Part shown: positions 2,592 through 36,756 of the stretch, one piece after another
Layout: each line of letters starts with the position of its first letter
Numbering within the stretch: position 1 is the first letter of the stretch
NCBI GenBank assembly: GCA_002731275.1
Contig: PCBK01000154.1
Location: 1 to 49,552 of the forward strand
Length of the DNA: 49,552 bases
Source of the DNA: Deltaproteobacteria bacterium
Lineage (GTDB): Bacteria; Myxococcota_C; UBA6777
Direction: 5' to 3'
Translations under genes and position numbers: made by a program
Notes under the pieces: model-generated
Database searches by the model: none
What the model was told of the DNA's origin: nothing
Seen by the model: only the letters and a program-made list of their open reading frames with translations

Positions 2592-2628
2592 CAGCCTAAA
2601 TCGAGCACATATCATCTCATTTAGGCTG
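2592..2628. promoter_or_regulatory. Alternative hairpin competing with the terminal helix of copy 1
   Basis: CAGCCTAAAT at 2592-2601 is the exact reverse complement of ATTTAGGCTG at 2619-2628. The second arm is also the 5' arm of the terminal helix of the 2621-2799 element, so the two pairings exclude one another. This resembles a switch between two folds, but copy 2 at 36147 has no equivalent upstream arm, so it may be incidental. Confidence 0.3.
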
Positions 2629-2799
2629 CTCCAAGGAAAAAAGCACACGAAAGAGGGCAGTCGATGGAGCCTCAGACAAGGCATGGGAAGGAGCCGTGGC
2701 GTCGCCAGTGTGGCGACGAATCACGCCGCTTGCGGTTTCATCTGCAACCTCTGCGTATGTATCTTTTTCCTACACTCTTTTTTTCTTGGAGCAGCCTTA
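2621..2799. ncRNA. Structured element, copy 1 (candidate non-coding RNA or ERIC-like repeat)
   Basis: 179-nt element closed by a terminal helix: TTAGGCTGCTCCAAG at 2621 pairs with CTTGGAGCAGCCTTA at 2785-2799 and continues through an A-run/T-run. Inside is a second helix (CACACG..AGAGG near 2644-2655 with CCTCT.CGTATGT near 2749-2761), and an 8-bp hairpin at 2700-2718 (CGTCGCCA-GTG-TGGCGACG). A second copy lies at 36147-36324. Unpaired blocks are conserved (TCAG.CAAGGCATG.GAAGG; CGACGAAT.ACG), while the helices differ in sequence and still pair. That pattern points to selection on RNA (or single-strand DNA) structure. Orientation of transcription is not known. It could be a small RNA, a cis-element or a mobile palindromic repeat; it matches no RNA family I can name. 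Confidence 0.55.
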
Positions 2800-4336: not shown

Positions 4337-6115
4337 ATGTCCAGGAATATATTGACTCTTGTATGTATGTTGACATGTTTATGTATCCCCACCCTCTCTC
4401 ACGGGCTCTGCCCCGCAGGTACGCATTCTAGCCGTATGAACGGCACCAAACCATGCTTACCTTGTCCAGCTGGAACGTATCAGGATAAAAAAGGCCAAAA
4501 TGTCTGCAAGCTCTGCCCTGTTGGACAATACCAAAACAAAAAAGGTCAAACCTCCTGTACGTCCTGCCCAGCCGGTACACACGGGACTGGAAAAGGAGGA
4601 AAACATATCGGCGTCTGTCAACCTTGTATCGCAGGGACATATCAAGACGAGAAAGGAAAGTGGCTCTGTAAGGTATGTCCTGTGGGAACCTACCAACCCA
4701 AAACAGGGCAACGAACACGTAGCGCCTGTCTCCCCTGCCCTCCAGGTCAATACCAACCAGGTCGTGGACAAAAAGCCTGCCTCTCTTGTCCTTCAGGGAC
4801 GTACAATAGCCTCAGAGGGAAAACCTCTTGTACGCCCTGTCCCATCGGTACATATAACGATAAGTCCGGCAAAACACATTGTCGTCCATGCCAACGCGGT
4901 ACATTCCAACCAAAAACAGGCCAAACCACCTGCAATATCTGCCCCAAAGGGCAATACCAGGACAGCGTCCAACAAGCTGTCTGTAAGATCTGCCCCAAAG
5001 GGACATTCAACGACAAAAAGGGACAAAAAAGCATCAAGTCCTGCACGCTCTGTCCCAAAGGCTTCTTTCAACATAAAGCCGGTCGGACATCTTGTATCGC
5101 CTGCCCAAAAGGCGCATTCCAGGATAAAAAAGGTCAAAAAGCATGTCGTCTCTGTACACCAGGAACCTACCAGGAAAAAACAGGCCAGTCCTTTTGTACT
5201 CCTTGCCCTCCAGGTACATACGGAAAACAAGTAGGACGCACCAAACAAACAGTCTGTCTCCCTTGTCCTGCCGGCTCCTACCAGGACAAAGCTGGTCAAC
5301 GCTCTTGTCAGGTTTGCCCCAAAGGAACCTTTCAACCCACAAAAGGTGCGCGTACTTGTCAGGCCTGCCCAAAAGGCACCTTCCAACCCACAAAAGGTCA
5401 AGCCTTCTGTCGCTCCTGTCGAAAAGGAACCTACCAACCCAAAAAAGGACAAACAGCCTGTTTGCTCTGCGCAAAAGGTACCTACCAGGATAAAAAAGGG
5501 CAATCTTCATGCACACTTTGTGTACCAGGGACCTTCCAACCCTCCAAAGGACAGACCAAGGCGTGTGCATCCTGTCCCAAAGGGACACGCCAACCAAAAT
5601 CCGGCCAAAGCGTCTGCCTCTCGTGCCCCATCGGCACCTACCAAAATAAAACGAAGGCACTCGTCTGTATCTCTTGCCCTATCGGCACATTCGGTACAAA
5701 AAAACAACAGACAACCCCCCTCGCTTGTCGCCCCTGTCCAGCAGGAACACATCAGAATAAAGCTGGTCAACGTCGCTGTATCCCCTGTCCCCCTGGGACA
5801 TATCAAAACCGCAAGGGACGCGGCGCATGTCTGCGATGCCCCGCCGGAACATACAACAACAAGTATGGCCAATCGTCCTGTGCATCTTGCCCCTTTGGGA
5901 CATACCAACCCAAGGTCGGACGTACAACGTGTGTCTCATGTCCAAAAGGACAATTCCAGGACCGGATGGGACAAACCTCTTGTAAGGCCTGCCCCAAAAA
6001 CACCTATAACAACCAAAAACACGCCATCACCAAAGACGCCTGTAAAGTCTGCCCCAAAGGCACATTCCAACCCTACACAGGACAATTCACCTGCCTCAAA
6101 CGTTCCACCAAATAA
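4337..6115 (+). CDS. Secreted protein of 32 tandem Cys-rich GCC2/GCC3 (ephrin-receptor/TNFR-like) repeats
   Basis: 592 residues, start preceded by AAAGGAG. Residues 1-23 are a signal peptide. Everything after is about 32 head-to-tail repeats of 17-20 residues with the pattern C(P)xGT(Y/F)Qx(K)xGQxxCxxC, giving roughly 64 cysteines and an elongated disulphide-stabilised rod, as in GCC2/GCC3 and TNFR-like modules of eukaryotic receptors. No membrane anchor, sorting signal or enzyme domain is present. Repeats differ in sequence but keep length, so the array has expanded and then drifted. A smaller relative is encoded at 29004-30086. Likely role: surface fibre, spacer or adhesin (inference). Confidence 0.88.
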   Translation: MSRNILTLVCMLTCLCIPTLSHGLCPAGTHSSRMNGTKPCLPCPAGTYQDKKGQNVCKLCPVGQYQNKKGQTSCTSCPAGTHGTGKGGKHIGVCQPCIAGTYQDEKGKWLCKVCPVGTYQPKTGQRTRSACLPCPPGQYQPGRGQKACLSCPSGTYNSLRGKTSCTPCPIGTYNDKSGKTHCRPCQRGTFQPKTGQTTCNICPKGQYQDSVQQAVCKICPKGTFNDKKGQKSIKSCTLCPKGFFQHKAGRTSCIACPKGAFQDKKGQKACRLCTPGTYQEKTGQSFCTPCPPGTYGKQVGRTKQTVCLPCPAGSYQDKAGQRSCQVCPKGTFQPTKGARTCQACPKGTFQPTKGQAFCRSCRKGTYQPKKGQTACLLCAKGTYQDKKGQSSCTLCVPGTFQPSKGQTKACASCPKGTRQPKSGQSVCLSCPIGTYQNKTKALVCISCPIGTFGTKKQQTTPLACRPCPAGTHQNKAGQRRCIPCPPGTYQNRKGRGACLRCPAGTYNNKYGQSSCASCPFGTYQPKVGRTTCVSCPKGQFQDRMGQTSCKACPKNTYNNQKHAITKDACKVCPKGTFQPYTGQFTCLKRSTK

Positions 6116-6757: not shown

Positions 6758-9205
6758 TTACAGCAAGTTCGCCGCAAGCTCGGCAAGCTCCGAACGCTCT
6801 CCCTTGATCAGGGTGACGTGTCCAGCGATCCCTTGCTCAATGAAGCGGTTCACAGTGTGAACAAGGCCGTTATCCGACGCGTCGACGTATGGATGATCGA
6901 TCTGGTACGGATCGCCTGTCAGGACGATTTTCGTGTTCTCACCGGCCCTGGAGATGATCGTTTTGACTTCGTGTGGGGTCAGGTTTTGACTGTTATGGAC
7001 AACGACGGCAGCCTGTCCTGCACATTTTCCTCGGGAAGCAGAGGGGATCAAGAAGTTATGCAGCTCATCCACCTCCATATCGAACACATGGTGCATTCCA
7101 GGGAGTGGCTTCACGCCCTTCACGACAACATATCCCCACTCTAGCTGTGGATTGTCCCAGCGACGTTGTCCTATCGCGTGTCGATCGTCAGGGTGGATTT
7201 TGTACGCCATCGAAGGAGGTACCAAAGGCGCGATAAGTTGACTGAGTCGACGATATCCAGCAGCGTTGATGGAGAGGATGAAGTGCTTGTCTTTGTACTT
7301 CATCGGTTTTGACTGGATACCAAAGTCCTCCAAACGTTTGCTCATACGGACAACAGACGCTTGATCAAATGATTCTGTGTGGAGGCGTGCGCTATTGAAT
7401 TGCGGACCAACACGTCCATCATCCATAAACCAAATCGCCAAAGCGCGAACATCCATCGTGTCCAGAACCCACTGTGGACAATGGTCTTTGGGTAAAGGAA
7501 ACGTCCGACGATCGCCAAACATTTTTGTTGAGAATGTGTACTTCGGCTTCTCTGGCGAGTCACCACAACCAAAGACACTCCTCACCTCCCTGTGTAAAAT
7601 GTCGGCTTTCCACCTGCAATACTCTTCTTGCTCTTGCCCGTGGATGATCGTCAAGCGATAGCGACTCTCTCCATGTGATGAGATGGAACCATCACCAAGG
7701 AAAGAGCCCAGTAAGATCTGCTCTTCGACCTCTGTAGGTTCCATAAGCACTTGATGCTCATGTGGATGGGATGCGACGACAAGATCGCCGGACTGAAGCT
7801 CGTTTGCAGGAATCCAGCCTTTATCTGTCAAAAATGGGTGGTTCTCGGTGCAGCGAATTTTTCGATTGGAGAGTTGCACTTCACAGAGGGCTTTTTTCCC
7901 TCGATGCCACATACACGTAATGTCTTTCCAGACAAAACGTTTTTGTTCGGGATCAAAGGACTTCACACGTGGCAATTTGTTGTCACGAATCCACGAGGAG
8001 AAGAGTCCGCCGATCTTTCGGGGCCCTTCTTCTGTGACAACAGGAGTCTCGTAAGGCACACATTCGTCGATGATCATGAACTGCTGTGGGATAGAGCGCC
8101 CACGGATATAAGTGAGCGGCTCGATCTCGAGCATCCCCATCTCGATCAACTCTTGGAACCCTCTCCCCTGTCGTTTGTCTTGCTGACTCAACCCCATCAA
8201 AAACTCTGTATTGTCGACGATGGGCTGCATCCAAGGTGACAGCTTCTCTTCGATGGTACCAGGAAGATAACCAAGATCTCGTCCCATCGGCAAGATCGGT
8301 CGACTGACCAGCAGCTTTTGGTAGATCTGCTCTTCAACGGTACATTGAAGACCCGCAGCGATCGCGAGCAACGTCTTTCCGGTCCCGGCTTTCCCGACAA
8401 GCGATATCAATTTAATGCGCTCATCGAGGAGCAGATCCAGGGCGAAGTTTTGCTCCCTGTTTCGTCCACGAATCCCCCAGATGAGATCACGACTTCTCTT
8501 GGAGAGGGCCTTGATGGCCTTGCCATCGGGCTCAATCCGGGCAACCGCCGAATGCTGTTCATCACCGATATTCTGTAACCAAAGGTATTGGTTGGGATAA
8601 AGTGAAGTGGCGTGTTCATCACCGTCTTTCACTTTTGCCGAGAGGTATTGCTGCAGCTCGTCAACGGAGAACTCTTCTCGGTCGAAGATCTTGTCGACGA
8701 GCTGTGCGGAGACCTTGAAGTCCGCGAAACCTTTGTAGAGCTCGTCGATGGTGACGGCTTCGGGGTCGTAGTCTTCAGTGTGAAGCCCGACCGCGTCACC
8801 ACGAATCCGCAGGTTTGTGTCTTTACTGATGAAGATCAAGGGGATATCCGGCTCGCGCTCTTTCAGATCGAGGGCGAGGGCGAGGATCTTGTTGTCCGCC
8901 ATATGCTTGTCTTGGAACAACCCCTCAGTCTTCACAGTGTGCCTTGTGTCTGTGAGTAGGACGCGTAGATTGCCACCGTTGGGCAACGTCGCGCCATCAC
9001 CAGAGAGACAACCTTCTTTTCTGTACTGATCGATATACCGGGCAAGTTGCCTTGCGTTACGGCCGAGCTCGTTGGCGTGCTTTTTAAAGCTGTCGAGCTC
9101 TTCGATGACGTAAATGGGGATCACGACGTTGTTATCTTCAAAGTGGAATATCGCACGAGGATCGTGAAGGAGGACGTTTGTATCAAAGACAAAATTTTTC
9201 TTCAT
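6758..9205 (-). CDS. PIN-PhoH family ATPase interrupted by an intein
   Basis: 815-residue precursor; start chosen at MKKNFVFDTN, the usual start of the PIN domain. Residues 1-~150: PIN nuclease domain (FVFDTNVLLHDP, EELDSFKK, acidic DTN and later ISKDTNLR). Residues ~240-381 and 739-815: PhoH P-loop ATPase with Walker A GKAGTGKT (271-278) and Walker B FMIIDE directly before the intein. Residues 382-738 are a complete intein. Removing it gives a 458-residue protein, normal for the YlaK-type PIN-PhoH family, and rejoins IIDE to SQNLTPHEVK. The family is linked to RNA metabolism and toxin-like RNase activity. The ComEA-like gene follows three bases downstream. Confidence 0.95.
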   Translation of the reverse strand: MKKNFVFDTNVLLHDPRAIFHFEDNNVVIPIYVIEELDSFKKHANELGRNARQLARYIDQYRKEGCLSGDGATLPNGGNLRVLLTDTRHTVKTEGLFQDKHMADNKILALALDLKEREPDIPLIFISKDTNLRIRGDAVGLHTEDYDPEAVTIDELYKGFADFKVSAQLVDKIFDREEFSVDELQQYLSAKVKDGDEHATSLYPNQYLWLQNIGDEQHSAVARIEPDGKAIKALSKRSRDLIWGIRGRNREQNFALDLLLDERIKLISLVGKAGTGKTLLAIAAGLQCTVEEQIYQKLLVSRPILPMGRDLGYLPGTIEEKLSPWMQPIVDNTEFLMGLSQQDKRQGRGFQELIEMGMLEIEPLTYIRGRSIPQQFMIIDECVPYETPVVTEEGPRKIGGLFSSWIRDNKLPRVKSFDPEQKRFVWKDITCMWHRGKKALCEVQLSNRKIRCTENHPFLTDKGWIPANELQSGDLVVASHPHEHQVLMEPTEVEEQILLGSFLGDGSISSHGESRYRLTIIHGQEQEEYCRWKADILHREVRSVFGCGDSPEKPKYTFSTKMFGDRRTFPLPKDHCPQWVLDTMDVRALAIWFMDDGRVGPQFNSARLHTESFDQASVVRMSKRLEDFGIQSKPMKYKDKHFILSINAAGYRRLSQLIAPLVPPSMAYKIHPDDRHAIGQRRWDNPQLEWGYVVVKGVKPLPGMHHVFDMEVDELHNFLIPSASRGKCAGQAAVVVHNSQNLTPHEVKTIISRAGENTKIVLTGDPYQIDHPYVDASDNGLVHTVNRFIEQGIAGHVTLIKGERSELAELAANLL
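6992..8062 (-). mobile_element. Intein with LAGLIDADG homing endonuclease inside phoH
   Basis: 357 residues (382-738 of the precursor). First residue Cys (CVPYETPVVTEEG, block A); block B carries TENHPF with the usual Thr and His; two LAGLIDADG-type motifs, LLGSFLGDGSIS and ALAIWFMDDGRV, mark the homing endonuclease; block F is VFDMEVDELHNF; block G ends VVVHN followed by Ser as the +1 extein nucleophile. All residues needed for splicing (Cys1, block B His, penultimate His, terminal Asn, +1 Ser) are present, so it should be active. The insertion point is the Walker B loop of the ATPase, a conserved site of the sort homing elements favour. Confidence 0.95.
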
Positions 9206-9580
9206 CAAGCACCCACGTATTCGTATGAGAGGATTGTGACGGCAAAAGATAAGCATATGCCAGAAGACTCCCGAGCGCAATAAGGCCACAACAAGAAAAA
9301 GGAGGTCTTGGAAAAAACCACCCCCCCACCCACGATAGGGAACCGCCAGACACAAGAGAAAACACATTGTGGGGAGTGAGAAAAAAGAGGACAAAACCAC
9401 GGAATATTGGTCAAGAAACACAACCACTTGTGTGCGTCTACCGAAACATACAAAAAATGAGGTGGAAAAGTCGCGTCAGATGTGATATCCCCTCCTGCGT
9501 TCAAGGACGAGATCGAAAGTTGACAGGAGAGAACGAATTCAATAGGATAGCGCATCGTCCGACCTGACAAAGGGAGTCCC
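9206..9580. other. Divergent intergenic region
   Basis: 375 bases between the divergently read PhoH and IscA-like genes. It holds C-runs and A-runs but no convincing gene, repeat or terminator. Promoters for both genes should lie here; none is clear enough to place. Confidence 0.4.
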
Positions 9581-36146: not shown

Positions 36147-36324
36147 TTAGGCCGTTGGATGAAAAAAAGCGTACGTAAGAGGGTCGGTGATGGAGTCTCA
36201 GGCAAGGCATGAGAAGGCGCAATAGCAGCGCTATTGCAACGACGAATAACGATGCTTGGGGCTTCAGCAACAACCTCTACGGACGTTTCTTTTTCTGTAT
36301 CCTTTTTTGCATCCGATGGCCTTA
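36147..36324. ncRNA. Structured element, copy 2 (candidate non-coding RNA or ERIC-like repeat)
   Basis: 178-nt partner of 2621-2799. Terminal helix: TTAGGCCGTTGGATG at 36147 pairs with CATCCGATGGCCTTA at 36310-36324. The second helix is CGTACGTAAGAGG with CCTCTACGGACG. The central hairpin is GCAATAGC-AGC-GCTATTGC at 36219-36237, against CGTCGCCA/TGGCGACG in copy 1: different bases on both arms, same pairing. Conserved blocks (TCAG.CAAGGCATG.GAAGG; CGACGAAT.ACG; TTCA.C..CAACCTCT) sit in loops or junctions. It lies between the convergent sigma operon and response-regulator genes; its right end overlaps the last three bases (stop codon) of the latter. Confidence 0.55.
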
Positions 36325-36756
36325 TGCTTGCAAGGCATCCTCGATCGTACGCGCAAATGTCTCAGAGCCCAGGTCATCTTTCAGCACATAACCTTTGACA
36401 CATGAGTAGGATGCAGCTCGCTCCATATCGGATGGGTGGGACGATGAAGTGAACATCACGACAACAATGGAGTGGAAACGACTCTCTTGTTGTAACGCCT
36501 CAAACTCCTCTAAAAAATCAAATCCCCCGACGATCGGCATGTTAATATCGAGAAAAATAAGACAGGGCGGAAAATCATCAGGATAGAGGCGCGTGTTGTT
36601 TTCATAATCCTTCAAGAAGGACAACGCCACCTCCCCATCTTCGGCCTCAAATACCTTTGAAAACGAGACTGTGTCCAATTTTTTCAGATAACGTTGCAGG
36701 ATATATCTGTCAGCTTCTTGATCATCGACAATCAACGTGGATATGTTGTTTTTCAT
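36322..36756 (-). CDS. Single-domain (CheY/Rcp1-like) response regulator
   Basis: 144 residues, receiver domain only. Acid pocket D11/D12 (LIVDDQEADRYILQRYL), phospho-acceptor D70 (CLIFLDINMPIVGGFDFLEE), Thr/Ser switch (VVVMFTSSSHPSD) and Lys (GYVLKDDLGSE). This form, with an extended loop before the Asp, is typical of Rcp1-like regulators paired with phytochrome or PAS kinases. Its start codon overlaps the stop of the PAS histidine kinase gene by four bases (ATGA), so the two are translationally coupled. With no output domain it probably relays to other proteins. Confidence 0.92.
   Translation of the reverse strand: MKNNISTLIVDDQEADRYILQRYLKKLDTVSFSKVFEAEDGEVALSFLKDYENNTRLYPDDFPPCLIFLDINMPIVGGFDFLEEFEALQQESRFHSIVVVMFTSSSHPSDMERAASYSCVKGYVLKDDLGSETFARTIEDALQA

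Follow-up and report, generated by a model that had tools for sequence, protein, structure and literature searches.

ERIC, NEMIS/Correia and RUP have been described as MITEs of 100-200 bp with terminal inverted repeats (TIRs), TA ends and a target duplication, which form stable RNA stem-loops and occupy intergenic positions (PMC2229807). An element of the same kind, alike in size, TIRs, target site duplication (TSD), stem-loops and intergenic sites, is found twice in the window, by which we mean the entire stretch of 49,552 nt that was analysed. The MITEs listed in PMC2229807 are, however, each restricted to one bacterial group, whereas the core of the present element spans phyla in which its TIRs and TSD lengths differ. 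Furthermore, the common view of MITEs is one of transposon ends enclosing filler, while in this element conservation is higher inside than at the ends. We consider it likely that this is a MITE-like, gene-less element of ~180 bp with ~93 copies in its genome, moved in trans by a DDE (cut-and-paste) transposase, and that it carries a covarying core, probably an RNA, which is shared across phyla.

A further system for comparison comes from a 2024 ncRNA survey of 50 genomes (NAR 2024, PMC11109978), which reports ~250 mobile/repeat sequence candidates, with MRSC-65-2 and its conserved UYCCGG repeat as the best example. MRSC-65-2 resembles the element in its long stem that covaries, copy numbers of dozens per genome, occurrence in diverse phyla, lack of a consistent gene orientation and an RNA or DNA form that is left undecided. 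The UYCCGG repeat is, however, present in 0/28 copies from the window's own genome and 0/31 diverse cores, the signature of the element being CAAGGC..GA.GA../..GA.GA..AACG, a difference that pertains to MRSC-65-2 alone of the ~250 candidates. This shared general kind would fit a known family carrying another name, whether as a repeat already named in bacteria or among the survey's candidates, which would be compatible with the MITE-like reading. We nevertheless regard such an identity as fairly unlikely, as the UYCCGG repeat of the survey's best example is missing, an ERIC copy of an E. coli locus gives no match to the core model (R2), which also excludes homology to ERIC, and no family of Rfam 15 lies above the gathering threshold, with weak chance matches only when relaxed thresholds were applied as well. 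The view of the earlier note that no known family has such a fold therefore agrees with the zero Rfam families matched. The intrastrand-triplex repeats (PMC4666352) have a different consensus, and a literature search with the element sequences returned nothing relevant.

Both copies are on the forward strand of the window, at 2621-2799 and 36147-36324, where the earlier note had placed them, and their flanks are unrelated. They had also been given the same length, but measure 179 and 178 nt, respectively. Their extents, from TSD to TSD, are supported by the sharp ends of a 28-copy alignment and by covariance model matches of 181.6 and 193.9 bits, while the TTA triplets at their ends are assigned from TSD statistics over 61 copies. 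Copy 1 comprises a 5′ TTA (2621-2623), the left TIR GGCTGCTCCAAG (2624-2635), the conserved core hairpin (CAAGGC...CGACGAATCACG, 2667-2737; R2 core model: 64.1 bits), the right TIR CTTGGAGCAGCC (2785-2796), which pairs with the left one, and a 3′ TTA (2797-2799). In copy 2, the 5′ TTA (36147-36149) is followed by a left TIR GGCCGTTGGATG (36150-36161) that differs from that of copy 1, the core hairpin (36193-36263; 83.8 bits against the R2 core model, with an E value of 9e-20 for the genome), the pairing right TIR CATCCGATGGCC (36310-36321) and a 3′ TTA (36322-36324). Read on the opposite strand, the latter is also TAA, the stop codon of a response-regulator gene (36322-36756; ORF list, Pfam Response_reg). 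The conserved blocks CTCAG.CAAGGCATG.GAAGG and CGACGAAT.ACG are present in both copies, as was claimed.

A BLAST search of the 10.75-Mb genome to which the window belongs identified 41 matches. Searching this genome with a covariance model built from 28 aligned copies yielded 104 matches at E <= 1, 93 of them at E < 1e-3, extending the family far beyond two copies; close relatives in the genome sample amount to only four genomes of the same family. The ends of the copies are sharp (NNN/GGC...GCC/NNN) with unrelated flanks, and the TIRs constitute helix 1, in which 94.6% of cells are paired. The three bases at either end are identical in 32/61 copies, against 17 expected from shuffling (reached in 0/2000 shuffles), while the same statistics over the 61 copies gave no whole-length signal for a TSD of 2 or 4-8 bp. 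The element therefore generates a 3-bp target duplication, which is of the TNA type and mostly TAA or TTA. Deletion derivatives that have lost the internal part and kept both ends are also present. Among the apparent 'solo ends', some are such derivatives in which little of the second end is left, others consist of a bare end, and they hence provide no evidence of 5′-truncated copies derived by retrotransposition. No gene was found inside the element and, in line with indels between the mostly intergenic copies, no shared reading frame was seen, so that the conserved frame proposed by the earlier note as a sign against a structured element was not observed. Derivatives of ~36-60 bp, hardly more than two terminal repeats, occur in Stutzerimonas nitrititolerans (loci L266-L272) and in this genome (L124, L125 and L121).

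Insertion can be followed in Stutzerimonas, where the gap between two genes that we take from their encoded proteins to be proC and yggT contains the element in some genomes and is empty in others. The empty site reads GGCAACTAAGGAGCC and the filled site AATTA[GGGTCTGTT...AACAGACCC]TAAGGAGCC, such that TA is duplicated (2 bp) and the proC stop codon is rebuilt as TAG. More than 120 ends with the same TIR are present in S. nitrititolerans, and among the matches listed only MITE-sized or smaller end pairs, rather than an element of autonomous size, were found. Older copies at the proC-yggT locus decay with no convincing compensatory changes, so that at this site selection on the fold is not apparent once the element has inserted. 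The TSD length thus varies by taxon, with 3 bp in this genome and 2 bp in Stutzerimonas, which argues against one and the same transposase.

The short, fixed TA/TNA duplications, the TIRs and the deletion derivatives with both ends retained suggest mobilization in trans by a DDE transposase. TSDs of TA or TNA are a feature of the IS5 family (IS427/IS1031 groups). Insertion sequences (IS) of this family resemble the element in target type and TIR style, and an IS5 transposase is encoded in this genome; they differ in that the element has no transposase gene inside. Since the search of this genome produced no IS with the family's own ends (TIR GGCTACTGCAAG or GGCCGTTGGATG), we can only infer, from the TA/TNA targets and TIRs of the GGGYNTGT/AGTGTC type, that an IS5-family transposase is the best candidate for the mobilizer. 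The match to a known transposon end envisaged by the earlier note as a refutation accordingly holds for the behaviour of the ends, which is transposon-like, and not for their identity with those of an IS in this genome. The TIR of an IS5-family element of this genome is TAGGGCGTGTCTGCAA and that of core elements elsewhere TAGGGCGTGT, both showing partial likeness to the family TIRs. The TIRs of the genome's own IS5-family transposases differ from those of the element and resemble them in part only, and its one intact IS630-like transposase, with its differing TIR TAGTGTACCGGAAC, was rejected as a mobilizer. At the loci examined, IS-sized elements with GGGTCTGTT ends contained no convincing transposase. 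Transposases are not enriched near the copies and none is included among the shared Pfam families listed near cores, the flanking genes being diverse.

The core extends well beyond this genome. The pattern CAAGGCATGAGRAG...CGACGAATNACG was found in 101 stretches of named genomes, belonging to Pseudomonas, Stutzerimonas, Halomonas, Salinicola, Nitrosomonas, Methylobacillus, Porticoccus, several Alphaproteobacteria, and one MAG each of Peregrinibacteria and Saprospiraceae. The R2 core model matches 24/290 diverse bacterial genomes, drawn as relatives, nearly all of which belong to other families, domain-wide, and 70/299 genomes of the Stutzerimonas phylum, often in several copies. The terminal ends of core-bearing elements elsewhere differ from those in this genome; the core is thus kept across phyla while the terminal repeats change. 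One copy of the core element is located on a viral contig (L230, IMG/VR contig 3300006226_000666), and a virus is a possible vehicle between hosts. BLAST of the window copy against phages and plasmids gave no matches.

The helices of the element covary both within the genome and between phyla. Within the genome, double-sided changes affect 14/48 consensus pairs with 95.3% of cells remaining paired, and the covariation score of 0.260 exceeds that of shuffled alignments (0.149 +/- 0.008) and slid controls (<= 0.097). Among 31 diverse cores aligned with plain MAFFT, double changes are observed in 17/18 pairs (score 0.673 vs 0.209 +/- 0.020), while 116 cores score 0.767 against 0.226 +/- 0.009 when shuffled and <= 0.125 when slid, the latter alignment having been fitted to the model and hence leaning towards structure. 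The covariation is significant, the opposite of what would have told against the structured RNA or ERIC-like structured repeat proposed in the earlier note, and both halves of that proposal are supported, the mobile repeat by its ends, TSD and copy number and the structure by the covarying fold. Both arms of the terminal helix change with pairing kept, as had been reported from two copies, the TIR versions GGCTACTGCAAG, GGCCGTTGGATG and GGCTTTTCCAAG each having a matching partner. A central hairpin, different in each copy and perfectly paired in both, had also been put forward; covariation in the element is strongly borne out when all copies are used, but the 8-bp hairpin drawn for copy 1 (CGTCGCCA/TGGCGACG) takes in some of the conserved CGACG block and has no homology with the hairpin of copy 2. 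The homologous helix in the 28-copy alignment is GCCGUGGC/GCCAGUGU, with one mismatch, and the original two-copy argument was therefore based in part on non-homologous helices.

The fold is furthermore strand-specific. G-U pairs far outnumber A-C mismatches on the forward strand (155 vs 27 within this genome, a count biased by derivation of the structure on that strand, and 46 vs 10 in a second count), and an energy comparison free of this bias finds the forward strand more stable in 28/28 own copies and 71/95 other copies. Relative to dinucleotide shuffles, the fold z values are -6.3 (copy 1) and -6.1 (copy 2) on the forward strand, and -4.9 and -3.4 on the reverse strand. The element hence encodes a covarying single-strand fold that is stabler on the forward strand. 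Covarying helices together with the excess of G-U over A-C indicate that a single-stranded fold, probably RNA, has been selected, and RNA is favoured over DNA by the asymmetry between strands as well as by the G-U and G.A positions that are conserved in the alignments, single-stranded DNA being a less probable form with which the same strand preference under DNA energy parameters (27/28) would agree.

The core has the signature CAAGGC-NN-GA-N-GA-N-hairpin-GA-N-GA-NN-AACG with stacked tandem G.A pairs. CAAGGC leads into two covarying pairs; two G-A/G-A units then follow, each with a single covarying pair after it, and next come a short loop and the hairpin, from which the strand returns via AACG. 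A U-A pair in the hairpin is invariant (111/112 cores) and the CAGG/AC core is present in 111/116, while the two tandem G.A pairs are found in 69/116 and 90/116 cores. Two standard pairs take the place of the outer tandem G.A in 21/116 copies, which supports the pairing. Inverted core pairs, always in the same order and mostly 105-110 nt apart, occur 35 times among 76 loci. The usual arrangement is a single core or an inverted pair; locus L325 (G389) harbors three direct-tandem cores at 84-86-nt spacing (1501-1741). Several copies in this genome (L087, L077, L079, L086 and L069:11243-11414) have an extra hairpin-forming stretch of ~40-60 nt (GAAGAGAGCGYACGTGTGCTCTC...) near the internal loop of the core.

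This architecture also bears on whether the fold matters as DNA only, as a hairpin or cruciform formed during transposition or replication, with covariation arising largely through arm-to-arm template switching that corrects the quasi-palindrome. DNA likewise accommodates stable tandem G.A pairs, as in the ATGAG/CGAATA motif. Together with this stability, the overall palindromic layout, in which a constant 105-110 nt lies between two inverted cores, and the preference of DNA energy parameters for the same strand (27/28) would suit such a reading. We consider it unlikely, however, as arm-to-arm correction would erase mismatches, whereas the G.A loops and G-U pairs are kept across phyla with covarying pairs flanking them, and as the excess of G-U over A-C is specific to one strand.

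For the MITE-like element with a probable RNA core, we propose that transposition would take place in trans by an IS5-family-like DDE transposase, that the fold would act as RNA produced by read-through transcription, and that it may be selected by helping the element to spread or to be tolerated. Conservation of the inside despite changing ends and TSD lengths implies that the fold has a function, and suggests either that a widely shared protein binds there or that the core itself takes part in the element's life cycle; most likely, it would be bound by a host or transposition protein that is conserved widely. More tentatively, and with less confidence than in the element as a whole, a single ancient RNA module, either catalytic or bound by a protein that is conserved widely, may reside in unrelated-looking MITEs throughout the bacterial tree, with the core rather than the ends as the unit selected for spreading. 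By a simple ORF-based gene call, the copies are dispersed, mostly intergenic, and without orientation bias relative to neighbouring genes, which is unlike the expectation for a cis-acting RNA and counts against our preferred explanation in this respect. The same lack of bias, together with the diverse flanking genes and high copy number, already disfavours a cis-regulatory RNA (riboswitch, leader or terminator) spread by duplication, which we regard as highly unlikely even though the conserved internal-loop core between variable helices is aptamer-like. Least probable of all is a SINE-like retro-element whose folded RNA is reverse-transcribed and inserted, as its strand-specific fold and many gene-less copies are outweighed by fixed 2- or 3-bp TSDs, TIRs and internal deletions keeping both ends, which are DNA-transposon features, the short fixed TSD by itself largely refuting it.

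A covarying core that spans phyla and is present in about one in four genomes sampled from the Stutzerimonas phylum provides two points of entry for the MITE-like element. With its binding partner named, it would become clear what a gene-less element gains from an RNA (or ssDNA) structure, while a covariance model would allow thousands of unannotated intergenic repeats to be classed.

Additional features can be observed in the window. A second palindromic repeat of ~108 bp (TTGGTCCTCTCGCGAA...TTCGCGAGAGGACCAC), flanked by TTA, abuts copy 1 at 2800-2911. Its ends recur at other loci of the same genome, several times beside the first family, as if TTA/TAA targets were common to both. A PhoH-like/PIN-domain protein encoded on the reverse strand (6758-9427) is split by a LAGLIDADG intein (Pfam), while the forward strand (4337-6115) encodes a protein of 18 ephrin-receptor-like cysteine-rich repeats (Pfam), which is unusual for a bacterium.
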